The notes under the pieces: generated by a model
Database searches by the model: none
Told to the model about the DNA's origin: nothing
Seen by the model: the letters and a program-made list of their open reading frames with translations, nothing else
Shown here: positions 10,113-60,144 of the stretch, one piece after another
Position numbering within the stretch: position 1 is the first letter of the stretch
Layout of the letters: every line of letters begins with the position of its first letter
NCBI RefSeq assembly: GCF_014640075.1
Contig: NZ_BMGG01000003.1
Coordinates: 67,866 to 131,865 of the forward strand
Reading direction: 5' to 3'
Source of the DNA: Chelatococcus reniformis
GTDB lineage: Bacteria > Pseudomonadota > Alphaproteobacteria > Rhizobiales > Beijerinckiaceae
DNA: 64,000 bases
Program-made: the position numbers and the translations under genes

Positions 10113-10429
10113 GATAGGCCCCCGCGCGAACGGCCGCCGGCGTCCAAATCGGTTTGGCGACTGCTCTTGCGCTTTCCCGACAGCCGCGGACAGGGCGAAG
10201 AGCTGAACGGGTGGACTATTGGCGGGCCAACATCATCCAAGCTAAGGCAATGTGAAGGCCTGATATTTCACTTGTCCGGGATGAGCGAGCGGCTCGCGCC
10301 GGCTGGCGTGCGGGCGAGCCGCCGCTCAGATGACATTTGCAGGCGACCTCCTGATTTGGCATCAGGGGGCGAACCGCCGCGGCGGGTGTATGATGCTTGG
10401 CCGCCGCTGACCCGCGGCGGCCGCCGGGA
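10113..10429. other. Intergenic region upstream of a TetR gene
   Basis: No gene is supported here. The stretch has a perfect 6+6 hairpin or operator at 10350-10366 and a perfect 12-bp GC palindrome (CCGCCGCGGCGG) at 10374-10385, both within 80 bases of the TetR start. Around 10200-10280 the sequence is less GC-rich (CATCATCCAAGCTAAGGC, TGATATTTCACTTG), which may hold the promoter. No clear terminator follows the acyl-CoA dehydrogenase stop. Confidence 0.5.
10350..10366. promoter_or_regulatory. Inverted repeat upstream of TetR gene, candidate operator
   Basis: CCTGAT and ATCAGG form perfect arms around TTGGC, 64 bases before the TetR start. Position and symmetry fit an autoregulatory site; a weak transcript hairpin is the alternative. 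Confidence 0.35.
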
Positions 10430-11239
10430 ATGTCGATGCCGAAGTCTGGGACCGTGTCGGAGAAGCCTGTTCCCCCCTCCCGGTCGGTCGACCCCGCCAG
10501 ACGTATCGAGAACGGTTCCAAATCCGGGGGAACGCCCCCCGGGGCGCCGGCGGCGCGTACCCGCAAGCGCCGCCGGACCCAGGCGGAGCGCAGCGAGGCG
10601 ACACAGAAGAAGCTGCTGGATGCGGCGGTGCGGCTGCTGCGCCAGAGTGGCTTCGGCGGGCTGCGCACCAGCAAGGTGGCGGAACTCGCAGGCGTCTCCG
10701 AGGGCGCGCAATTGCATCACTTCCCGACCAAGCGGGACCTGTTCGTTGCCGCCCTGAACCATCTCAACCAGAATTTTGCCGCTCACAGCCGGCAACTGGC
10801 CAAACAGGCGGAGGCATCGCGGGACCCGATCGCGAGCATCATCGACGACGCGCACCACTTCTTCTTCAGCGATTTCTTCTTCGTTGAGCTGGCGGTGGCG
10901 ATGGGCGACGCCGACATTCGCGACGTGCGCCGCGAGGCGTACGAAGCGTCCCGCACCAGCCGGTTCGCGGTCGAGGCGGCGTGGCTGGACGCGCTCGTCG
11001 CCCACGGCATTCAGCCCGACATCGCCGGTGATGTGCTGACCCTGACGATCAGCATCGTCCGCGGCTTCGCCGTCCGCTCCTTCCTCGACAACGATCAGGA
11101 GCGCTTCTCCCAACTCTATCGGGTCTGGCGGGAGATCGTCGGCAGCTATCTGGCGAGGCATGGTGCCACGGAGATCGGGCGGCGCGACGACATGCAGGCG
11201 GGCGTGCCGCATCGTGCGCGCTCCGCTCGGAGCCGATAG
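10430..11239 (+). CDS. TetR family transcriptional regulator
   Basis: A 269-residue regulator with an unusually long, basic, probably disordered N-terminal tail of about 50 residues (rich in Pro, Ser and the TRKRRRTQ cluster) before the TetR DNA-binding domain. The helix-turn-helix is in GFGGLRTSKVAELAGVSEGA followed by QLHHFPTKRDLFVAAL. The ATG at 10430 is preferred; an ATG at 10436 and a TTG at 10397 are alternatives. The C-terminal segment DIAGDVLTLTISIVRGFAVR reappears in decayed form about 1.3 kb downstream (12359-12489), which points to a former paralogue. Its target is not clear; the DUF4436 gene follows about 110-175 bases later on the same strand. Confidence 0.88.
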   Translation: MSMPKSGTVSEKPVPPSRSVDPARRIENGSKSGGTPPGAPAARTRKRRRTQAERSEATQKKLLDAAVRLLRQSGFGGLRTSKVAELAGVSEGAQLHHFPTKRDLFVAALNHLNQNFAAHSRQLAKQAEASRDPIASIIDDAHHFFFSDFFFVELAVAMGDADIRDVRREAYEASRTSRFAVEAAWLDALVAHGIQPDIAGDVLTLTISIVRGFAVRSFLDNDQERFSQLYRVWREIVGSYLARHGATEIGRRDDMQAGVPHRARSARSR

Positions 11240-11414
11240 GTCTCGCAAAGCGGCAACGCGATGATCGTGAACCGAGGCGCCGACGGGCCCAGCATGGCTA
11301 CACATCGCGCCGTGCACACGGCATCGGCCTCCTCGGGGTTAGCGCATGCCAGGCTCGCCGCGAGATGATAAGCGGAGCCCGGCGGCCTCAATCCGCAACG
11401 GACGGCATGACGTG

Positions 11415-12350
11415 ATGGAAAGTGCGACGCGCGAAGCCGCGAGCGAAGAGCCTGAGGAGGAAGCCCCGCCCGCCGCGGCGGACAAGCCCGCTCGCCGCAG
11501 GCTGCGGCGCGGCCTTCTGCTCGTCGCACTCTTGGTGCTCTGCGCCGTCGGCTACGGTCTAGTGCTCCAGCGCTTCGATATTTCGGAAGTGCCGATCGAG
11601 GCGCAATTCGGAGCCCCGATCGATGAGGCCGGTCTCGTTCTCTCCTTGCTGCCCGTTGCCATCGACTCGACCCAGGAGACGATGCAGATCCGGATCAGCG
11701 TGACGCCGCCGCCCTCGCCAAGCGGTCCGCGTGCCGCCATCGCAACGCGCGACCTCACGCTCAGGCTGCACCGCGACACCTTCGTCGAGCATATCCCGAT
11801 CCGGGCGCAACAGCCGCTTCCCGAGTTGACCCGCAACTTCGACCTCAATGATGGCAGCATCCGCTTCTATCCCGTCGATCGCTTCTCCGCTTCGGTGCAC
11901 CTGAGCGTCGTGGAGAAGGGGCCCGGCGGCAGCGAGCGTGCACTGCCCCTTCACGTCAAGATGTGGGAGGGCATCCTCGGCTTCACCGTTCACGGCGAAC
12001 AGGCGGCGCCCATCGATCCGCGGGATCTCAACTTGAGCTTCAGCGTCCGGCGGACCGGCGCGGTCAAGTTCTTCAGCATCACCATCTACGCGGCCATGGT
12101 CGTTCTCACCCTGTGTGCCCTTTCCATCGGAAGCCTCGTCTTCATCGGCTTCCGCAAGATCGAAGCGACGTTGGTCGGGGCCATGGGCGCCATGGTCTTT
12201 GCGCTGCCGGCGCTGCGCAACGCGTTGCCCGGCGCCCCTCCCCTGGGCATCCGCGCCGACGTGCTGGTGTTCTTCTGGGCCGAGATCGGCGCCGTCGTGG
12301 CGCTCTCGCTGTTCATTGCCGCCTGGGTCCGTCGCGGCTCGCGGCCGTAG
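11415..12350 (+). CDS. DUF4436 family membrane protein
   Basis: A 311-residue protein with an acidic N-terminal cytoplasmic segment, one transmembrane helix (RGLLLVALLVLCAVGYGLVL), an extracytoplasmic beta-rich domain of about 170 residues, and three C-terminal membrane helices. The last part contains ALPALRNALPGAPPLG, the hallmark of the DUF4436 family, whose function is unknown. The family is best known to me from actinobacteria, so an alphaproteobacterial copy is a little unusual. Start choice is open: an ATG at 11346 in the same frame would add 23 residues, and neither has a strong ribosome-binding site. Neighbouring TetR gene and TetR remnant do not explain its role. Confidence 0.75.
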   Translation: MESATREAASEEPEEEAPPAAADKPARRRLRRGLLLVALLVLCAVGYGLVLQRFDISEVPIEAQFGAPIDEAGLVLSLLPVAIDSTQETMQIRISVTPPPSPSGPRAAIATRDLTLRLHRDTFVEHIPIRAQQPLPELTRNFDLNDGSIRFYPVDRFSASVHLSVVEKGPGGSERALPLHVKMWEGILGFTVHGEQAAPIDPRDLNLSFSVRRTGAVKFFSITIYAAMVVLTLCALSIGSLVFIGFRKIEATLVGAMGAMVFALPALRNALPGAPPLGIRADVLVFFWAEIGAVVALSLFIAAWVRRGSRP

Positions 12351-12358
12351 GCGGCAGG

Positions 12359-12489
12359 CAGGGCATCCCGCGCGACCTGGCCAGCGACGTCCTGACTGCC
12401 AACGATCAGCACCGTCCGCAGCTTCGCCGTCCGCTCCTTCCTCGACGACGATCCGCGGCGCTTCGCGCGGCTCGACCGGGGTCGTGCAG
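12359..12489 (+). pseudogene. TetR C-terminal remnant, frameshifted
   Basis: The translation GIPRDLASDVLT followed, after a one-base shift, by TISTVRSFAVRSFLDDDPRR aligns with GIQPDIAGDVLT and TISIVRGFAVRSFLDNDQER of the intact TetR protein encoded at 10430-11239. At the DNA level CTTCGCCGTCCGCTCCTTCC is identical in both places. The N-terminal helix-turn-helix is missing, and the frame breaks around 12403-12410. The third-base differences show that it is a diverged paralogue rather than a recent duplicate. It therefore looks like the tail of a second, decayed TetR gene. Limits are approximate. Confidence 0.7.
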
Positions 12490-12820
12490 GAGCCCGTCTC
12501 CGACGCGCACAAGGCAGACTGCTAGCTTGGCGAAGGAGCCGACCGGACAGGCTCAGCCGCTGACTAGCCCTGTCGCGGTTCATCGCGGTCTGGATCGGCT
12601 GCGATTCGCGTCCGCGAGAGCGGCAGCTGAGACCGTGAAGATCATCCACCGCAGCCGGTGGAAGCGGCCCCGCTCGCCCGACTGTGACTGAGTTGCCGCA
12701 CGGATCGCTCACGGCAATCGCTACGCGAACTCTGCCTTGACGGCAACTCGCGGCCCGATATGGTCCCGATCCTTCCTGGAACACGGAAGGGTCGCGTCGA
12801 CGCCGATTAGCGCGGAACGT

Positions 12821-12838
12821 AAATATCCTGGAATATTT
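12821..12838. repeat. AT-rich near-palindrome upstream of RTX gene
   Basis: AAATAT and ATATTT are perfect arms around CCTGGA. It opens the AT-rich leader of the RTX gene, about 180 bases before its start, where a regulator or a nucleoid protein of the H-NS/MucR type could bind. No cognate regulator is identifiable. Confidence 0.35.
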
Positions 12839-13014
12839 CAAATGCCGGCGGAGATAGATTTAATACGTTACCATTATTCTGGATAAGACAGTATACTAAA
12901 GTATTAATTTTTGTCATGTTGAAGTCGATAAAAATCACGTTTACCAAAAACTCATGGGCACCGCTTTGGACAACCGTCGCGTCGGTAAGTGCCTAATCTG
13001 CCAGGAGCCAGATT

Positions 13015-15057
13015 TTGCCCGCAACAGTTGAAGAAGTCCACACCACTCGCGCGATCGCGGCCGCTGATGTGGTCGTTAGCGAGCAGTATGGCTATACCCT
13101 TTTTGTCGCACGGCTGGACAAGGCTGCGACTACGGCGACGACCATCGCCTACACGACCGTCGACGGGACTGCGAAGGCAGGTGTGGACTACGGGGCCACA
13201 TCGGGTATCTTCACTATTCCTGCGGGTTCGATGGGTGCTGATGTATTCATTCCGATCATCAGTGATGAACTCAAGGAAGAAGATGAGACATTTGAGATAA
13301 TTCTTTCGGATGCGAGCGGCGCCCAGTTCCCGGACGGGGCCACGACATTGAAGGCAACGGTCACGATCCGCGACGACGATAGACTCGTCGGTGGCGATGG
13401 GGACGACACGATCTATGGCAGCGCTTGGGGCGACACGGTCACCGGCGGGGGAGGCAATGACGTCCTCTATGGCGGCGTTGGCGATGATACCCTCGAGGGC
13501 GGGGACGGCGACGATGCCCTTTATGGCGGGGGCGGCATTGACAGGCTCTACGGCGGCGGCGGCGGCGATTTGGTCGATGCAGCTGATGGCTGGCGCTACG
13601 GCGGCGACGGCGATGATGTCATCGGAGGAGCCGATGGCTGGCGCTATGGCGGAGCCGGCGACGATGTCATCGTAGGAGCCGATGGCTATCGCCATGGCGG
13701 AGCCGGCGACGACCTCATCGGAGGAGCCAATGGCTATCGCTATGGTGACGATGGCAACGATACCCTGTGGGGCACCAACGGCTACTTCGACGGTGGAAAC
13801 GGCTTCGACTTCATCACCTACGACTTTGCCTCCGCGGCGGTCTCGGCTGAGCTGGGGGGATTCGGTGAGATCGGCCCCTTGGGAACGGGGCAGTTCCTGC
13901 ACCACATCGAGAACATCGAAGGTCTCATCGGTTCGAAGTTCGACGATCAATTGATCGGTGACGCGGCCGACAACCAGCTGCTCGGCAACGATGGCAACGA
14001 TACGCTCTCGGGCGGAAACGGCAGCGACGTGCTGAGCGGCGACAACGGCCGCGACACGCTCCTGGGCGGAGCCGGCGCCGACGAATTGGACGGCGGCGAA
14101 GGCACCGACTACGCCGTTTACGACACCTCGATGGCCGCGGTCTCGATCCGCCTCGACCTCGGCACGGGCGCGGGCGGCGATGCGGCGGGTGACACGCTGG
14201 TCAACATCGAGGGGCTGGTGGGCTCGGCCTTCGCCGATACCCTGATCGGCAACGACGGCGCCAACACGCTGGTCGGCAACGATGGGGCCGACACGCTCCA
14301 GGGCCTTGGCGGCGCCGATGCCATGGCCGGTGGCAACGGCGACGACATCCTGCTCGGCAACGACGGCGGCGACGCCATGGACGGCGGCGTCGGGCAGGAC
14401 TTCATCTCCGGCGACGGCAGCAACGACACGCTGCTCGGCGGCATCGGCGACGATTTCGTGCGCGGTGGCAGCGACGGCGACTGGCTCGACGGCGGCGCCG
14501 GGCTCGACTTCGCGCTCTACGACACCTCCGCGGCGGGCATCGCCATCCGCCTCGACATCGGCGCCGGCCTCGGCGGCGATGCCACCGGCGACACGCTGAG
14601 GGGAATCGAGGGGGTGGTCGGTTCGAGCTTCGACGACGCGCTGCTCGGGAGCATCGGCAACGACCAGCTGCTCGGCGGCGACGGCGCCGACACCCTGGCC
14701 GGCGTTGCCGGCAACGACCTGCTGAGCGGCGGCGGCGGCAGCGACCTGCTGCTGGGCGACATGGGCGCCGACGTGCTGACCGGGGGCGCCGGCGCCGACA
14801 CCCTCATCGGCGGCGCCGGCGCCGACATTTTCTACCTCGCCGCCGCCGACAACGCGGTGGGGATCTTCGACGTCGTCACCGACTTCCAGGCCGGCGAGGA
14901 CCTGATCTACCTGCAAGGCTGGAACCCGGCCACGCTGGCCGCCGTCGACGTCGACGGCAACGCCGTGCTGACCACCACCGACTCCGGCTACATGACCGGC
15001 GTCGTCTTCGTCGGCGCCACCGCGGCTCAAGTCATGGATCAGGTGCTGCTGCTCTGA
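13015..15057 (+). CDS. Calx-beta / RTX (hemolysin-type calcium-binding repeat) protein
   Basis: A 680-residue acidic, glycine-rich secreted-type protein. Residues about 10-120 form one Calx-beta domain (TTVDGTAKAGVDYGATSG, ending VTIRDDD). From about 125 to 640 it is built of RTX nonapeptides of the GGDGDDTI / GGNGDDIL kind, which fold as calcium-loaded beta rolls. Three larger modules starting DFITYD, DYAVYD and DFALYD separate the RTX blocks. The C-terminal DFQAGEDLIYLQG region resembles type I secretion signals. The start is a TTG at 13015, eight bases after CAGGAG; no ATG is available nearby. No HlyB/HlyD/TolC-like exporter is adjacent; the RND pump downstream is a different class. There is no catalytic domain, so adhesion, surface-layer or matrix roles are more likely than toxin activity. 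Confidence 0.88.
   Translation: MPATVEEVHTTRAIAAADVVVSEQYGYTLFVARLDKAATTATTIAYTTVDGTAKAGVDYGATSGIFTIPAGSMGADVFIPIISDELKEEDETFEIILSDASGAQFPDGATTLKATVTIRDDDRLVGGDGDDTIYGSAWGDTVTGGGGNDVLYGGVGDDTLEGGDGDDALYGGGGIDRLYGGGGGDLVDAADGWRYGGDGDDVIGGADGWRYGGAGDDVIVGADGYRHGGAGDDLIGGANGYRYGDDGNDTLWGTNGYFDGGNGFDFITYDFASAAVSAELGGFGEIGPLGTGQFLHHIENIEGLIGSKFDDQLIGDAADNQLLGNDGNDTLSGGNGSDVLSGDNGRDTLLGGAGADELDGGEGTDYAVYDTSMAAVSIRLDLGTGAGGDAAGDTLVNIEGLVGSAFADTLIGNDGANTLVGNDGADTLQGLGGADAMAGGNGDDILLGNDGGDAMDGGVGQDFISGDGSNDTLLGGIGDDFVRGGSDGDWLDGGAGLDFALYDTSAAGIAIRLDIGAGLGGDATGDTLRGIEGVVGSSFDDALLGSIGNDQLLGGDGADTLAGVAGNDLLSGGGGSDLLLGDMGADVLTGGAGADTLIGGAGADIFYLAAADNAVGIFDVVTDFQAGEDLIYLQGWNPATLAAVDVDGNAVLTTTDSGYMTGVVFVGATAAQVMDQVLLL
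13585..13776 (+). repeat. Four 48-bp in-frame tandem repeats in the RTX gene
   Basis: Units begin at 13585, 13633, 13681 and 13729, each 48 bases (16 codons). They translate as DGWRYGGDGDDVIGGA, DGWRYGGAGDDVIVGA, DGYRHGGAGDDLIGGA and NGYRYGDDGNDTLWGT, with a partial fifth unit (NGYFDGGNG). The period of 16 differs from the 9 or 18 of normal RTX repeats because each calcium-binding GGxGDDxI motif alternates with an aromatic-basic DGWRYGG-like loop. The first three units are close at DNA level, which suggests recent tandem duplication. Confidence 0.85.
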
Positions 15058-52832: not shown

Positions 52833-54845
52833 TCAGAAGACGATGTCGTCCGGGCCCCGGATCGGCCGGGCGGAGGCCGCGGCGGTGGTCTCCACGCTGC
52901 CCATGCGGTCCATGCTGCGCAGCCGGCCGAAGTCGAGGCCGGTCAGTTGCTCGATCAGCGCGATGGGGCGCTGGAACACCCGCGCTTCGTCGACCGTGTA
53001 GGGGTTGTAGCGGGCCGCCTCGAACAGCGGCGCGATGGTCGCCGACTGCTCGACGACGAAGCCGGTGACCGAGGCCGTGCCGTCCGGGCGCTTGAACACC
53101 GCGATCTTCCAGAACGACCACGGGATCAGCCAGGGGCCGCCGCGCAGGCCCTCGCCGTAGAAATCGTCGTCCGGCCGCAGGATCGGCCCGGTCATCACCG
53201 ACACCTTGTGCTCGCGCTGGTCGGCGCGTGCCAGCACGAAATCCTCCAGGTTGCCCCAGGTCTCGCTGTTGTAGACATGCTCCTGGGGCGCGGCGTTGGT
53301 GTAGTGATAGGTGTCGGCCGCCGCCCGGTCGGCCACCGCCTGCGGCCCCCAGACCGGGTCGAGACGGCGCACCAGATGGCCGCGGTCGATCTGGATGCCC
53401 TTGCCCGGCACCTGGCCGTAGACCTCGGCCAGCGTCTGCTGGCTCGCCGGCAGCCGCTTGTCGCGGCGCCAGCCGGGGCTGGTGCTCGTCGATGTGAGCT
53501 CGTTGCCGGCGATGTTGACGGCCGTCCACACCGCCAGCCGCCGCTCGGCATGCATGGCCAGGCTGAAGTGGGTGTAGTCGAAGACGGTCTTGCCGGTGTC
53601 GCTGTTCTTGGCCAGCGGCCTGCGGAACCCGCGGCCGGCCTTGGGCAGCGGCACCGGAAGGTCGGCGCCGAGGAAGCCCGGATCGAAGCCGAGCGAATCG
53701 GCGAAGGCCGGGTCGGTGAAGCGGGTGGTCTCGAAGGCGGCGGCCTCGGGCACGCCCGGCAGCGTCTGCCATGGCTTGGGCTCCGCCGCCCCCGCCGCGG
53801 CCCGGCGCGGCGGCAGTGCGGTGCGCGGCTCGAGCGACAGCATCGTCATGATCTTGGCCGCGTCGGCATTGAAGGGCGCGGCCGCCTTGAGGTCGGCCCA
53901 GATGGCGCTGATGCGCACGCCCTCGTTGGCGACCCAGGACTTGGCGTCCTCGCCGGCCGCCTCCGTCCAGATGCCGCCGCGCCGGTCCAGCGGCTCGCCG
54001 CGGTCGTTGCGGTCGACGATCGCGAGATGGTGGATCGCCACCAGGTCCCACTGGTCGTTGAACACCGGCGAGCCCGAGGAGCCCCGCTCGGTGTCGGCGG
54101 TATAGTGGATGAAGGCCGACGGAAGGTGCGGAAACTTTGCGCCGTCGAGGGTGATGATGCGGTTCTCGCGCACCACCACCTGCTTGGTGCCGCCATCCGG
54201 GTGCTGGATGATCGATACGTGCTCGCCGGCGATGCCCTTGCCGCTCATCGGGATCAGCGGCAGCACGCCGAAATCGGTGACCGGCGTGCCGTCGTGGGCC
54301 ATGGGCGAGATGGCGACGATGGTGAAGTCGAGACTTGCGCTGGTGTAGAAGGCGTTGAGCGGCACGAGCGGAAAGATGCGGCCGCGCCGCTCGACGAAAT
54401 TGCTGTCGAGCTCATAGTCGAACTCCGCCAGGCTGCGGCTCGCCGTCTCCGCGTCCGGCAGCACGTGATTGTTGGTCACCAGCAGCCCCGGCGCCGCGAG
54501 GAAGCCCGTGGCGTAGTCCGGCGGCCCGCCGGCCAGGCCCAGCGTCTTGATGCGGCACACGGCGTGGGCGGCGGCGAGACCGCGGGCGAAGAAATTGACG
54601 CTGACGATGTCGCGGCGGCCGATCACCCGCTCGAGCGCGTTCGGATCCTTGCGGCTGATCAGCCCGAGCCGAACCGCGATGCGGTCGGGCCTGTCGGTGC
54701 CGAAGAGCTTGGCGGCGGTGGCCGGAGCCACTTGAGCTGCCAGCCGCGCCGCGTCGGCGACCTTCTGGCGGGCGACCGCATCCTTGGCCGCCTCCACCAG
54801 CTCACGCTGCACCGCCACATCCTGCTGCGTATCGATGCGGGCCAT
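52833..54845 (-). CDS. Trypsin-like protease fused to DNA/RNA non-specific endonuclease
   Basis: A 670-residue two-enzyme protein. Residues 1-100 are helical and of no known fold to me. Residues about 105-280 are a trypsin-like serine protease: His127 (VTNNHVLP), Asp173 (SLDFTIVA) and Ser257 (ERGSSGSPVF). Residues about 420-640 are a NucA/EndoG-type nuclease with DRGHLVRR (catalytic His489) and the metal-binding Asn region TNAAPQEHVYNSETW. A Pro/Ala-rich linker separates them. There is no signal peptide or membrane helix, so it appears cytoplasmic. The start is ATG 54845, followed by ARIDTQQ. Protease and nuclease in one chain suggest self-processing or target-triggered nuclease release. It lies 93 bases downstream of a ParD-like gene. 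A nutrient-scavenging enzyme exported in another way is the alternative. Confidence 0.85.
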   Translation of the reverse strand: MARIDTQQDVAVQRELVEAAKDAVARQKVADAARLAAQVAPATAAKLFGTDRPDRIAVRLGLISRKDPNALERVIGRRDIVSVNFFARGLAAAHAVCRIKTLGLAGGPPDYATGFLAAPGLLVTNNHVLPDAETASRSLAEFDYELDSNFVERRGRIFPLVPLNAFYTSASLDFTIVAISPMAHDGTPVTDFGVLPLIPMSGKGIAGEHVSIIQHPDGGTKQVVVRENRIITLDGAKFPHLPSAFIHYTADTERGSSGSPVFNDQWDLVAIHHLAIVDRNDRGEPLDRRGGIWTEAAGEDAKSWVANEGVRISAIWADLKAAAPFNADAAKIMTMLSLEPRTALPPRRAAAGAAEPKPWQTLPGVPEAAAFETTRFTDPAFADSLGFDPGFLGADLPVPLPKAGRGFRRPLAKNSDTGKTVFDYTHFSLAMHAERRLAVWTAVNIAGNELTSTSTSPGWRRDKRLPASQQTLAEVYGQVPGKGIQIDRGHLVRRLDPVWGPQAVADRAAADTYHYTNAAPQEHVYNSETWGNLEDFVLARADQREHKVSVMTGPILRPDDDFYGEGLRGGPWLIPWSFWKIAVFKRPDGTASVTGFVVEQSATIAPLFEAARYNPYTVDEARVFQRPIALIEQLTGLDFGRLRSMDRMGSVETTAAASARPIRGPDDIVF

Positions 54846-54938
54846 GACGCCTCCAGCCGCTCCCCCCAATGGGCCGGACTGCCCGTCGAGCGGTCGTCCC
54901 TACTGGAGCAGAACTGCGCCCGGCATGCCACGGCGTTT

Positions 54939-55280
54939 TCAATCGTGGCGCGCACAAGTCGAGCAGGCAGGCTGCGGGGATGCCCGTGCTTCATGCGCTG
55001 TCACAGTCTTCGCATGAAGAGCTGAAAGCCGCTTCCGGATCTGGCCGCCGGTCACAACGGGCCGTCCATCATTGACTGAACGATAGATTTGGTTGCGGAT
55101 CGACGCCATGCGCTCTGCATATTCTTCGCGCTCGCGCTGCCGTACCCTTACGGCATCGCGTAGGGCTTCGCTCGTCGAGGCAAACTCGCCGCTCGCGACG
55201 CTGGCACGCAGCGCCTGCCCCAGCTCCGGCGTCATCATCGCACTGATCTCGTCCGGGCTCTGACCCGATTGGTCCTCCAT
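54939..55280 (-). CDS. ParD/CopG-like ribbon-helix-helix protein, no toxin partner seen
   Basis: A protein of up to 113 residues with the ribbon-helix-helix antitoxin pattern MTPELGQALRASVASGEFAS followed by TSEALRDAVRVRQREREE, as in ParD. Type II antitoxins of this kind bind DNA with the first part and neutralise ParE with the C-terminal part. Here the C-terminal part (RNQIYRSVNDGRPVVTGGQI onward) is followed by 30 extra residues. No parE-like toxin gene lies before or after it. The next gene on the strand is the protease-nuclease fusion. The start may be 55280 or the internal Met-Met at MMTPELG. It may be an orphan antitoxin, a repressor of the nuclease gene, or the leftover of a broken module. 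Confidence 0.65.
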   Translation of the reverse strand: MEDQSGQSPDEISAMMTPELGQALRASVASGEFASTSEALRDAVRVRQREREEYAERMASIRNQIYRSVNDGRPVVTGGQIRKRLSALHAKTVTAHEARASPQPACSTCARHD

Positions 55281-55347
55281 GCAAATGAGGCAGCATAACT
55301 GGGATCCGATATCGTCGACCGCGCAAGCCTGAGATCGAACGCGCGGC

Positions 55348-55962
55348 TCATTCCCCCGCCGCCTCGTCCGCCCGCTCCGCCTCCACGAGGTAGCGCAGCG
55401 GCCCCGGGGTGACGGCGTCGAGCGGCCAGCAGGTCGACAGCACGAGATGGTGCCCCGGCGCCGCCGCATCGATGCCGGAGGCGTCCCACGTCACCACGCG
55501 CGTGCCGGTGACGCGGAAGCGCGCAACGACACCGTCGCGGCGCGTCACGCGGATCTCGTCGCCGCGCCGCATCTGCCCCAGAAAGGCGAACTGGGTGTCG
55601 CGGTGGGCGGCGTAGACGGCCGTGCCGGGCTCGCCCGCGGCCGGTGTGCCGCTGACGTGGCCCGGCCCGAAGGCCAGCGCCTGGCCGCTGACGCTCTCCA
55701 GCGCGATGCTGCTTCGGCCGAGCCGCGGGACCGCGATGCGAGCCACCGGCCAGCTGTCCATCCAGGGCCAGGGCTTGACCGGCTGGCCGCTGGCGAGCGA
55801 GGCGGTGAAGGCCCGCTCGAGCAGCACCTGGGCCAGCGCCGCCTTGGCGTGGATCCACAGACCCTGACCGGCGAACCACAGCCCCGCCAGGACGAGGGTA
55901 GCGGCGAGCGCCACCCTCGGGTTGATGCGGCGGCGCGGCGCCACGGCAGCGGTGGCGGTCAC
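55348..55962 (-). CDS. Class GN (Gram-negative) sortase
   Basis: A 204-residue sortase transpeptidase with an N-terminal membrane anchor (ALAATLVLAGLWFAGQGLW) and catalytic His120 (YAAHRDTQF), Cys178 (LSTCWPLD) and Arg190 (GPLRYLV). Sortases attach surface proteins in Gram-positives; the proteobacterial class works with a single adjacent substrate. Its start overlaps the stop of that substrate gene by four bases (ATGA), so both are made in fixed proportion. It would act on the periplasmic side of the inner membrane, cutting the LPTTA-type signal of its partner. The acceptor nucleophile is unknown. Confidence 0.92.
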   Translation of the reverse strand: MTATAAVAPRRRINPRVALAATLVLAGLWFAGQGLWIHAKAALAQVLLERAFTASLASGQPVKPWPWMDSWPVARIAVPRLGRSSIALESVSGQALAFGPGHVSGTPAAGEPGTAVYAAHRDTQFAFLGQMRRGDEIRVTRRDGVVARFRVTGTRVVTWDASGIDAAAPGHHLVLSTCWPLDAVTPGPLRYLVEAERADEAAGE

Positions 55963-58295
55963 GCCGGCCTCCGCCGCCGGCCGGCACCGGAGGCCAGGAC
56001 TGCCAGCCCGAGACCGAGCAGGACGAGGCCCGCCATCAACCGGAGCTCGGCGTCGGTGGCCGTCGTCGGCAGCACCACGCCCTGGGACGGCGAGGCGACG
56101 GCCGCCACGACGGCGCCGCGCGGCGGCAGCGGCCTGGTGGGCCGAGCCACCCGGCGCGCATCGAAGATGCCGTCCGGATCGCCGTGCTCCGCACGACGCT
56201 CCACCGGCGCCCTGCGCTCCGGCCCGGGCTCGCCGGCCGGCCCGAACACCTTGTCGAAGTCCCAGCCGGCCGGCAGCTCGAGCGGCACGTCGGCGCGGGT
56301 GAGCGGCACGTCGAGCGCGCGGCTCGGCGTCTTGTCGACGGCCACCAGGCTGGTCAGGCGCGTCACCAGGTGATGGTCGAGGGCGAGCGCCAGCACCGCT
56401 TTGTCGGCCTCGTCCTGGGTCATGCGGTTCATGGCGCGCGCCACCTCCGCGTCGTCGATCTTGCGCCGCGCCCAGACCTTGGAGAGGCCGCGGCCGGCCG
56501 CCGCTTTGTCGATCGGCAGGCTGAGGCTCCAGGGCGTGTCGCCGATCCGGCCGGAGATCGCGAGGGTGCCGGCGGCGCCCCCTTTGCCGAGCTTGGCCGC
56601 CAGCACCAGCGGCTCGCCGCGGTAGAGGTCCGGCACCGAACCCGGCGTCAGGTCGGCGTCCGCTGTCGAGAGTTGCGCCTCGATGTCGGTCACCGCCGGG
56701 TTCTCCAGCTTCTGCACCAGCGCCTGCATGCGCTCCTGCACCTGCCCGCCGGTGCTGATCGCCGTGAAGGTGCCGCGGCCGAGCTCGGCCGCACGCCGCA
56801 TCAGATAGCCGTTCGGGGCCGAGCCGATGCCGACCATGAACAGGCGCGAGCGGCCGCGCGTCCGGGCGATGGCTTCGAAGATCTGCTGCTCGTTACCGAT
56901 CGCGCCGTCCGTGAGAAAGACCACCTGGCGCAGGTGGCTGGTCTCGTGCGGCCGCGTATCGCTCAAGGCCGCCTTCAGCGGCGCCAGCATCTCGGTGCCA
57001 CCGCTGGCCTCGAGGCGCAGGACGAAGGCCTTGGCCTGCCCCAGATGCTCGGCATCGGCCGGCACCGTGTCGTCGAACAGCCGGGTCATGGTGTCGTCGA
57101 AGCGGATGACGTTGAAGCGGTCGGCCGGCCGCAGACGGTCGAGTGCGTAGATGAGGCTGGCCTTGGCCTGCTGCATCGACGGCCCGCCCATGGAGCCGGA
57201 ATTGTCGATGACGAAGGTGACGTCGCGCGCCTTGGGAGCGGCTGCGGCATCGACGGCCGGCGGCGTGACGAAGGCGAGGAGATAGTCGTCCTTGCCGACA
57301 CGCTCGCGGAACAGCCCGACGGACGGCAGCTTGCTGGCGGTCGGCGTCCAGGTCAGCTCGAAGTCGCGGTCCGCCGGCACGGGGCCGGCGAGCGCCACCG
57401 TCCGCGTGTCGGGCGCAGGCTGCTCGACCGTCACCTGGTGCGTGGCGCTCGCGACCTCCGCCAGCGGAAAGCCCGCCGCCAGGCGCACCGTCAAGGTAAC
57501 GGGCAAGGTGATTGGGTTATCGGGCGGATCGGTGCGCGGGTCGGTGACCGGCGGCTCGATGCGGGCCCGATCCGGCACCGGATCGGAGCCCCAGCCGCTG
57601 CCGCCGTCGTCGAAGCGAACCTGCTGGGCGACCGGAGCCGGGTTGTAGCGCGGGGCCACCACCAGCGGCACCTTGAGCGAGAAGCGGCCGTCGGCCTGCC
57701 GCACCGGCTCCTGGTACTCGATCTGCACCACCACGCTCTCGCCGGGTCCGATATTGGCGACCGAGTTGGTGAAGATGTTGGGCCGTTCCTGCTCGGTCAG
57801 CGCGGCCTTGCGGCCGTCCGCGCGGGCCGCCTCGTAGACCTCTCGCGCCTTCTTGCGCTCGGCGATGTCGGCGACGATGACGCGCTTGCCGACCACCATC
57901 TTCATGGAGTCGACGGCGCTCCCGTCCGAGAGGGGATAGACGTAGACGCCCTCGATCCAGCCGTCGGTCGGGTTGCGGAAGACCTGCGTGACCCGGGCAC
58001 GCGCCGTTGGTCCGCTGACGGCGATGTCCACGTCGGTATCGACACGGATCGCCTCGATGTAGCCCTTGCTGGTCTTGACCAGCAGCGAGCCGCTGCGGGC
58101 CGTGTCGGGGCTGATCGACGGGACCGGCGGCGGCGGATTGGTCGCACGCGCGCCGGGGCTGGCGGCAAAGAAGGCGACGACCGCGATGCCGGCGGCCGCG
58201 GCGGCTGAGGCAAGGCTTGCCAGGCGCAGGGCCGGATACGCGGTGAGCCCGGCGGCGGACGCGCGCGCTCCGGGGCTGTTGGGGGCGATGGACAT
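55959..58295 (-). CDS. Marine-proteobacterial-type sortase target protein, VIT and vWA domains
   Basis: A 778-residue exported protein. An N-terminal membrane segment (ASLASAAAAAGIAVVAFFAA) is followed by a VIT domain (about 65-200; RVTQVFRNPTDGWIEGVYVY), then a von Willebrand A domain with a complete MIDAS DxSxS (Asp364, Ser366, Ser368 in FVIDNSGSMGG), and a C-terminal sorting signal: LPTTATD (742-748), a hydrophobic helix and the RRRR tail. The architecture is that of inter-alpha-trypsin-inhibitor-like proteins coupled to class GN sortases. A CTGGAGA site supports the start. The sortase gene is the next in the operon, and an HTH regulator diverges upstream. Confidence 0.92.
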   Translation of the reverse strand: MSIAPNSPGARASAAGLTAYPALRLASLASAAAAAGIAVVAFFAASPGARATNPPPPVPSISPDTARSGSLLVKTSKGYIEAIRVDTDVDIAVSGPTARARVTQVFRNPTDGWIEGVYVYPLSDGSAVDSMKMVVGKRVIVADIAERKKAREVYEAARADGRKAALTEQERPNIFTNSVANIGPGESVVVQIEYQEPVRQADGRFSLKVPLVVAPRYNPAPVAQQVRFDDGGSGWGSDPVPDRARIEPPVTDPRTDPPDNPITLPVTLTVRLAAGFPLAEVASATHQVTVEQPAPDTRTVALAGPVPADRDFELTWTPTASKLPSVGLFRERVGKDDYLLAFVTPPAVDAAAAPKARDVTFVIDNSGSMGGPSMQQAKASLIYALDRLRPADRFNVIRFDDTMTRLFDDTVPADAEHLGQAKAFVLRLEASGGTEMLAPLKAALSDTRPHETSHLRQVVFLTDGAIGNEQQIFEAIARTRGRSRLFMVGIGSAPNGYLMRRAAELGRGTFTAISTGGQVQERMQALVQKLENPAVTDIEAQLSTADADLTPGSVPDLYRGEPLVLAAKLGKGGAAGTLAISGRIGDTPWSLSLPIDKAAAGRGLSKVWARRKIDDAEVARAMNRMTQDEADKAVLALALDHHLVTRLTSLVAVDKTPSRALDVPLTRADVPLELPAGWDFDKVFGPAGEPGPERRAPVERRAEHGDPDGIFDARRVARPTRPLPPRGAVVAAVASPSQGVVLPTTATDAELRLMAGLVLLGLGLAVLASGAGRRRRPA

Positions 58296-59259: not shown

Positions 59260-60144
59260 TCAGGCCAATGAGCGGAGGAAGGAAGCCGTCGCCTGGCCGA
59301 TCTCGTCCGGGCTGTCCTCCTGGATGAAGTGGATTCCCTTCACCGTCACCTCGGTCTGGTTGGGCCAGGTGCGGCAGGCCTCCCGTGGCCGGCCGGTCAG
59401 GATCGAGCCGGGCTCGGCATTGATGAACAGCTTGGGGATCGGGCTCTGTGCGAGGAAGCGCCCGTAGTCCGCCACCACCTCGACGACGTCCTTGGGTTCA
59501 CCCTCGATCGGGATCTGCCGCGGCCAGGTCAGCGTGGGGCGGCGGTCTTCGCCCGCCGTCGCGAACGGGGCGCGGTAAACCGCCATTTCCGCCTCGCTCA
59601 GTGGCCGCAGCACCGATCCGGGCAGCACGCGCTCGACGAAGACGTTCTTGTTCAGCACCATCTCCTCGCCGCCCTCGCCGCGGAAGCCCTGGAACACCCG
59701 GCGGGCATTCTCCGGCCAGTCGGCCCAGGTGACCGGCTGCACGATCGCCTCCATGTAGACGATGCCGCGCACGCGCTCCGGGTGCTGGCGGGCCCAGTCG
59801 AAGCCCAGCGCCGAGCCCCAGTCGTGCAGCACCAGCACGACCTTGTCGCCGAGGCCAAGCTGATCCCAGAGCGCGAAGAGGTGCTCACGGTGCTCGCGGT
59901 AGGTATAGCGCCCGGGCCCGGAACCCGGCAGCTTGTCGGATTGGCCCATGCCGATCAGATCGCACGCCACCAGGCGTCCGAGGCCGGCGCAATGGGGCAT
60001 GACATTGCGCCAGAGGTAGGACGAGGTGGGATTGCCGTGCTGGAACACGATGGCATCGCCTTCGCCCTCGTCGACGTAGGCCATGCGCCGGCCCAGGACG
60101 GTCGCGTATTTGGTCTCGCCGAAACGTTCAGCCGAAATGGGCAT
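59260..60144 (-). CDS. dhaA: Haloalkane dehalogenase, LinB type
   Basis: A 294-residue haloalkane dehalogenase (HLD-II, LinB-like) that hydrolyses carbon-halogen bonds of haloalkanes to alcohols and halide. Residue numbers coincide with LinB: nucleophile Asp108 ([11 protein letters not shown]), halide-binding Trp109 and Asn38 ([12 protein letters not shown]), acid Glu132 (YMEAIVQP) and His272 ([13 protein letters not shown]). The match is close along the whole length, for example [20 protein letters not shown]. Residue 177 is Ser (LPGSVLRP) where LinB has Leu at the tunnel mouth, so substrate preference may differ. It follows its own TetR gene by 15 bases with a strong GGGGAGGAGAG site, so the two are co-transcribed. 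Part of a dehalogenation cluster. Confidence 0.93.

Follow-up and report, generated by a model that had tools for sequence, protein, structure and literature searches.

We report that a 64,000-nucleotide stretch of Chelatococcus reniformis DNA (hereafter, the window) encodes a single protein carrying both a trypsin-like protease and a NucA-like nuclease, and we propose, with moderate confidence, that it is a stand-alone, single-chain NucA-trypsin (System 3) conflict protein of the cytoplasm whose protease would control its own nuclease. We favor this reading for the following reasons (L and G numbers are our labels for loci and genomes): Both active sites are strongly conserved, and no export signal was seen by hydropathy in any of 22 aligned fused homologues. 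The same architecture is presented as a predicted conflict system in passages of Kaur et al. 2020 (PMC7159879). A related fusion in genome G010 is clustered with Trypsin_2, EAD1-trypsin, STAND-like, and lysozyme-like genes, and related Trypsin_2 modules also occur in fusions with candidate effectors of other kinds, namely Endonuclease I (L004), an endonuclease/exonuclease/phosphatase domain (L010), and an alpha/beta hydrolase (L047, a match under the cut-off). Finally, close relatives are encoded within multi-hydrolase clusters, several of which are on rhizobial plasmids.

A protease and a nuclease on one chain

The reverse-strand open reading frame at 52833-54845 comprises 670 codons plus a stop, with an ATG at 54845. 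We place the start there because a GGAGG lies just upstream and because homologues start alike: Their N-termini (MARID, MARVD, MAKID) align with that of the window protein, and the L022 homologue has a GTG at the matching place, followed by AHID. The fused gene is present in one copy in the window genome. Comparison with its two closest genome-contig relatives gave a dN of 0.18 and a dS of 1.10 (L021) and a dN of 0.20 and a dS of 1.83 (L022), with dS near saturation in both, and the gene is under purifying selection; the fastest-evolving part is residues 1-70, for which five comparisons to the window copy gave dN values of 0.45-0.69. We conclude that the open reading frame is real and that the original prediction was right to see two enzyme domains in it. 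The features, all on the reverse strand, are as follows.

52833..54845 (-), fused trypsin-like protease/Endonuclease_NS protein, 670 aa, single copy (translation, Pfam)
54850..54854 (-), GGAGG just upstream of the ATG, likely ribosome-binding site (read from the sequence)
54639..54845 (-), residues 1-69, variable N-terminal extension, helical in part, with no family match (Pfam, model, dN)
54552..54638 (-), residues 70-98, conserved segment that contains helix 83-94 and runs into the first strand of the protease, candidate dimerization element (alignment, model, comparison with FAM111A)
54033..54512 (-), residues 112-271, Trypsin_2 protease domain with H127, D173, and S257 (Pfam E=2.6e-20, alignment)
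53715..53831 (-), residues 339-377, disordered Pro/Ala-rich linker (pLDDT <50 in the AlphaFold2 model)
53718..53738 (-), residues 370-376 (AFETTRF), candidate processing site (clade alignment, inference)
52926..53594 (-), residues 418-640, Endonuclease_NS (NucA/EndoG-like) domain (Pfam E=1.5e-38, fold search)
53376..53387 (-), residues 487-490, DRGH nuclease motif (alignment)

Pfam recognized Trypsin_2 and Endonuclease_NS in the window protein and nothing more at E 0.1, and NCBIfam gave no match at the same threshold. PADLOC gave weak matches to the protease part only (RT-Protease_XI, E=5.2e-05), which we set aside. Conservation was assessed in a 22-member alignment consisting of the window copy and the fused relatives from our genome surveys that have single matches across both domains. 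Plasmid copies, the G010 fusion (L097), the interrupted L104 copy, L096 (trypsin plus Endonuclease I), and fusions whose protease the profile missed, such as L048, fall outside this set. The protease triad H127/D173/S257, correctly called complete at the outset, is present in all 22 members. The nuclease motif is likewise complete, at D487-R488-G489-H490, although its histidine had been numbered 489 and is residue 490. H490, N517, N526, and E534 are invariant (22/22), and D487 is present in 19 of 22.

Among the best 50 Foldseek matches listed, those to the nuclease are EndoG, EXOG, NucA, and Serratia nuclease. Anabaena NucA, Serratia nuclease, and EndoG/EXOG share both the fold and the active-site motif with the window protein. 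The secreted NucA/Serratia-type nucleases have a signal peptide, whereas the window protein shows none by hydropathy and is fused to a protease. The prediction that it carries no export signal was borne out by hydropathy for the window protein (N-terminal KD19 maximum 0.76 and whole-protein maximum 1.22, with neither signal peptide nor membrane segment) and for all 22 aligned homologues, in which the highest 19-residue mean was 1.74, at residue 474 of L094, and did not exceed 0.99 near any N-terminus.

A protease-only profile search returned V8/Spl glutamyl endopeptidases, FAM111A, and exfoliative toxins, and the FAM111A protease domain was the highest-ranked protease among the best 50 fold matches listed. 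These closest solved relatives by fold and profile, FAM111A and V8/Spl, have no attached Endonuclease_NS domain, unlike the window protein; V8 and Spl proteases are secreted. T252 (21/22) and H272 (22/22) line up with V8 positions that we take to be S1-pocket residues, and D251 (22/22), six residues ahead of the catalytic serine, presumably occupies the place of the trypsin S1 aspartate. The pocket thus points two ways, since T252 and H272 resemble glutamyl endopeptidases and D251 suits Arg/Lys, so that either Glu or Arg/Lys is possible at P1.

The AlphaFold2 model (mean pLDDT 74.8, pTM 0.45) predicts both enzyme domains mostly well and agrees with the predicted Pro/Ala-rich linker. Its placement of the two domains relative to each other is not trustworthy, and therefore the model cannot tell an exposed nuclease site from a covered one. 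Where the linker ends, all seven close members aligned keep the motif FE[ST]TR[FY]. It holds both Glu and Arg, so as a candidate cleavage motif it would suit either P1; its conservation is confined to the close clade, and it could instead be structural. A different, short strand-like linker motif (e.g. SITIPLNITVSL) was found by regular expression in four of the 22 members (L024, L080, L085, L092), with variants discernible by eye in about twelve. Because none was seen in the window clade, we dropped this beta-strand-like motif.

The N-terminal region had been described as a 100-residue helical domain. This holds in part: Residues 1-80 are mostly of low pLDDT, and residues 1-70 are the fastest-evolving part, whereas residues 70-98 are conserved, at positions including E72 and V96, and run straight into the protease.

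Spread and genomic context of the fused gene

In a draw of 397 genomes from the order, 52 matched the fused protein at E 1e-20, and 16 of the 397 had a single match across both domains. The latter count is a lower bound for fusions, as the G010 fusion, for example, matches over its nuclease part only. Matches were found in 34 genomes of a phylum draw (397 genomes, overlapping the order draw) and in 17 of 100 genomes of the first survey; the window genome is included in all three samples. In our counts, L006 stands for L084 of the same genome, and the near-identical L103 and L114 are one locus. Neither of two congeners of the window genome has the fused protein. The closest genome-contig matches are in Bradyrhizobium (74% identity), Phyllobacterium (74%), and a planctomycete MAG (53%), while a family-mate homologue is only 41% identical, a contrast that points to horizontal transfer. 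We conclude that the window copy is patchily inherited. In g78, the genus of Bradyrhizobium record G394, four genomes share one syntenic site, which looks vertically kept.

Plasmids also carry the gene. In PLSDB, 89 plasmid records matched at E 1e-20, and in 26 the match spans 80% or more of the protein. By type, 34 of the 89 plasmids are conjugative, and the five records at 60-80% identity (67-74%) are all rhizobial. On a plasmid of Rhizobium sp. 007 (L104:9854-11976), protease and nuclease are annotated apart in different frames, which we read as an interrupted copy. Phage records gave no match at E 1e-8, a scan of IMG/VR with alignment A2 gave 121 pattern hits of which none was confirmed, and a viral fold library gave general protease and nuclease matches only.

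The window gene is surrounded by a class GN sortase and its target, an aldo/keto reductase, an SDR, and a FabK-like enzyme. No defense or effector gene was recognized among the neighbors scanned, and the sole defense match nearby was a weak one, to a helix-turn-helix protein. At E 1e-60, searches of the two congeners recovered neither the flanking aldo/keto reductase nor the sortase target, so no empty site was available for comparison. The sortase adjoins a marine proteobacterial sortase target protein (VIT-VWA; 55348-58295 (-), both above the NCBIfam cut-off). Between the sortase and the fused gene lies a small ParD-like open reading frame (54939-55469 (-); TIGR02606 E=1.5e-05, below cut-off), for which no partner toxin was recognized, and a haloalkane dehalogenase is encoded at 59260-60144 (-) (NF002938, well above cut-off).

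One or a few neighbors were scanned with a readable result at 14 loci of the 22-member set. Nine of these look ordinary (window, L021, L085, L086, L090, L091, L092, L094, L095) and five look effector-like (L022, L023, L080, L088, L089). The evidence is weaker for three of the five: The L080 neighbor is alpha/beta-hydrolase-like by eye, with no Pfam match, and the L088 patatin and the L089 endonuclease/exonuclease/phosphatase are under cut-off. The remaining eight loci are L024, L079, L081, L082, L083, L006, L093, and L087; L079, L081, L082, and L083 are syntenic with one another, and the one neighbor scanned at L087 gave no match.

The close clade (at least 53% identity) comprises nine records at eight non-redundant loci: window, L021, L022, L023, L102, L103/L114, L104, and L109. 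At four of the eight (L022, L104, L109, L103/L114), the gene immediately upstream of the fused gene encodes an S1/P1 nuclease. At L023, a trypsin/S1-P1-like fusion lies ~270 bases upstream (Pfam S1-P1 E=0.0027, under cut-off; PADLOC "trypsin-like," E=4.3e-35), and the window, L021, and L102 showed no S1/P1 gene. For rough comparison, 3 of 20 fusion-carrying genomes, which are not the plasmid-bearing species themselves, have S1/P1 genes (four copies). Also near the fused gene are PLD-like genes (L022, L102, L103/L114, L109), pYEATS (L022, L102), patatin (L102, and L022, where it is cut by the locus end), and DUF2278 (L022, L109). The linkage to S1/P1, phospholipase, and pYEATS genes, at several loci on rhizobial plasmids, hints at a broader multi-hydrolase island. 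Such an island has no mention in the section 32 text of Kaur et al. 2020 (PMC7159879), and a literature search on the pYEATS and S1-P1/DUF2278 contexts found nothing useful.

System 3 and the proposed control of the nuclease

As set out in passages of Kaur et al. 2020 (PMC7159879), System 3 combines Endonuclease_NS with a trypsin-like peptidase, fused or in one operon; it is mostly alphaproteobacterial, is associated with a multicellular habit, and is predicted to serve immunity or cell suicide, deploying the NucA nuclease through a proteolytic cascade. Effectors coupled through EAD1 (not required) and a nearby STAND NTPase with a Death-like domain are described there as optional. The idea recurs in a 2021 paper from the same group (PMC8195603, in the part available). 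We found no experimental test of NucA-trypsin systems in the open-access literature. The window protein has the NucA domain, with conserved active-site residues, and the peptidase, fused and with its triad intact, and its genome, we infer, fits the alphaproteobacterial distribution. It is thus a new member of an already predicted kind, the architecture being in print and the idea not new. Of the optional features, EAD1 (PF19955) was absent from the window genome search, and no STAND, lysozyme, or second trypsin gene was recognized among the neighbors scanned, so that the window copy stands alone. EAD1 was found in one of 20 fusion-carrying genomes, G010, which served as the positive control, and not in the other 19, among them the window genome. 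G010 and the window genome share a GTDB family. The trypsin-Endonuclease_NS fusion of G010 (L097:4528-6906) sits in a cluster that also holds a Trypsin_2 gene, a STAND-like gene whose AAA_16 match (32.2 bits) falls just short of the 32.6 cut-off, a lysozyme-like gene whose match is likewise below cut-off, and, ~9 kb from the fusion, the EAD1-trypsin gene, with EAD1 over its cut-off.

Control of a nuclease by a trypsin-like protease has an experimental precedent. Excerpts of Tuck et al. 2025 (PMC12799240) report that variants of Hachiman and AVAST contain an MBL-fold pro-nuclease that a trypsin-like protease switches on, that forced dimerization of the Hachiman protease causes potent toxicity, making protease oligomerization the trigger, and that nuclease-protease pairs occur in Hachiman, AVAST, Lamassu, and DRT. 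These pairs and the window protein both couple a trypsin-like protease to a nuclease. In the excerpted pairs, however, the MBL-fold pro-nuclease comes from a separate upstream gene, whereas the window protein carries Endonuclease_NS on the same chain, and no MBL-fold gene was found among the window neighbors scanned. Moreover, their protease is fused to a defense protein (HamA, Avs, or LmuA), whereas no such domain and no sensor was recognized in the window protein.

We postulate that protease-controlled release of the nuclease is the most likely working, on the strength of family context and of analogy with the pair of Tuck et al. (PMC12799240, excerpts), a different trypsin-like/nuclease pair in which proteolytic activation was shown. 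The protein would stay in the cytoplasm, and in resting cells the nuclease would be kept inactive, either because it is joined to the remainder of the protein or because protease activity is low. Infection or damage would bring proteases together, perhaps via the conserved helix before the protease, and these would then cut the linker near FE[ST]TR[FY], in cis or in trans. Once released, the NucA-like nuclease would degrade DNA and RNA, and the cell or the invader would be killed. Linker cutting is possibly how the protease controls its own nuclease. The dimerization step is modeled on FAM111A, the highest-ranked fold match, which dimerizes via its N-terminal helix and needs to do so for substrate cleavage (PMC10920703, in part). 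Judged by its position, window helix 83-94 may be an equivalent element (the fold search gives no residue ranges). Counting against the proposed trigger, the same part of that report describes FAM111A autocleavage as independent of dimerization, and counting against the proposed site are the restriction of its motif to the close clade and the two-way signal of the S1 pocket.

The conflict or suicide role first suggested for the protein fits its family, the printed prediction, the System-3-like cluster of G010, and the multi-hydrolase clusters, several of them on rhizobial plasmids. Against it stand the absence of any recognized defense or effector gene beside the window copy, the ordinary look of nine of the 14 scanned loci, the failure to find EAD1 in 19 of 20 fusion genomes, and the seemingly vertical retention of the g78 site. 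The original prediction had named housekeeping neighborhoods without defense genes, coupled with a lack of self-cleavage, as grounds for rejecting this role; neighborhoods of that sort were found at the window and in part of the homologue set. If the proposed control is true, a trypsin-like protease unleashing an EndoG-like nuclease would parallel apoptotic nucleases. With both enzymes encoded by one gene, this member offers about as simple a construct as there could be for testing a protease-unleashed nuclease in bacteria.

Alternatively, protease and nuclease could attack molecules of the cell or invader in parallel, leaving their own linker uncut, under the control of a further partner or of expression. 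The two intact active sites, the flexible tether, and the lack of a recognized inhibitor gene nearby agree with this, as does the pairing of related protease modules with quite different partners. We nonetheless regard it as unlikely because a constitutively active cytoplasmic Endonuclease_NS should be toxic, and because a precedent for proteolytic activation exists, for another nuclease (PMC12799240, excerpts).

A housekeeping role in repair of DNA-protein crosslinks, with a FAM111A-like protease to strip off the protein adducts and an EXOG/EndoG-like nuclease to trim the DNA, would account for the best fold matches (FAM111A protease domain and EndoG/EXOG, among the best 50 listed) and for the placement among ordinary genes at nine of 14 scanned loci, together with the mutual synteny of four further loci. 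Fold-level likeness to FAM111A and EndoG says little on function, however, and the patchy spread (a single two-domain match in at least 16 of 397 order genomes, and in 0 of 2 congeners), the plasmid carriage, and the clustering with S1/P1, PLD, and patatin genes render this role very unlikely. Least probable of the readings weighed here is a dimerization-dependent FAM111A-like protease and EXOG-like nuclease that process crosslinks, spread by plasmids among rhizobia, and form no immune switch. Delivery into other cells by a secretion system or contractile device, to which the type I secretion operon near plasmid relative L112 and the occurrence of Endonuclease_NS domains in antibacterial toxins might point, is highly improbable given that hydropathy finds no signal peptide or membrane segment in 22/22 homologues and that no delivery or immunity gene was recognized beside the window gene.

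Further genes near the fused relatives

A conserved protein of ~300 residues recurs near fused genes, including in plasmid clusters (L022:4962-5864, L102:14032-14940, L103:8359-9273, L109:8963-9898, L110:18517-19389; 47-57% identity to the L022 copy). It had no Pfam match and no meaningful PDB sequence match; by motif it looks CYTH-like, a likeness that neither search supported. Relatives of the endonuclease/exonuclease/phosphatase kind lie near fused genes at L089:6777-7886, L088:16026-17696, L103:22484-23680, and L107:5293-6390, and a domain of the same kind is the one fused to the related protease in L010. At L088, the gene immediately upstream of the fused one encodes a membrane patatin-like protein (10230-13286, under the Pfam cut-off), and farther out is a gene whose product reads like a serine recombinase.
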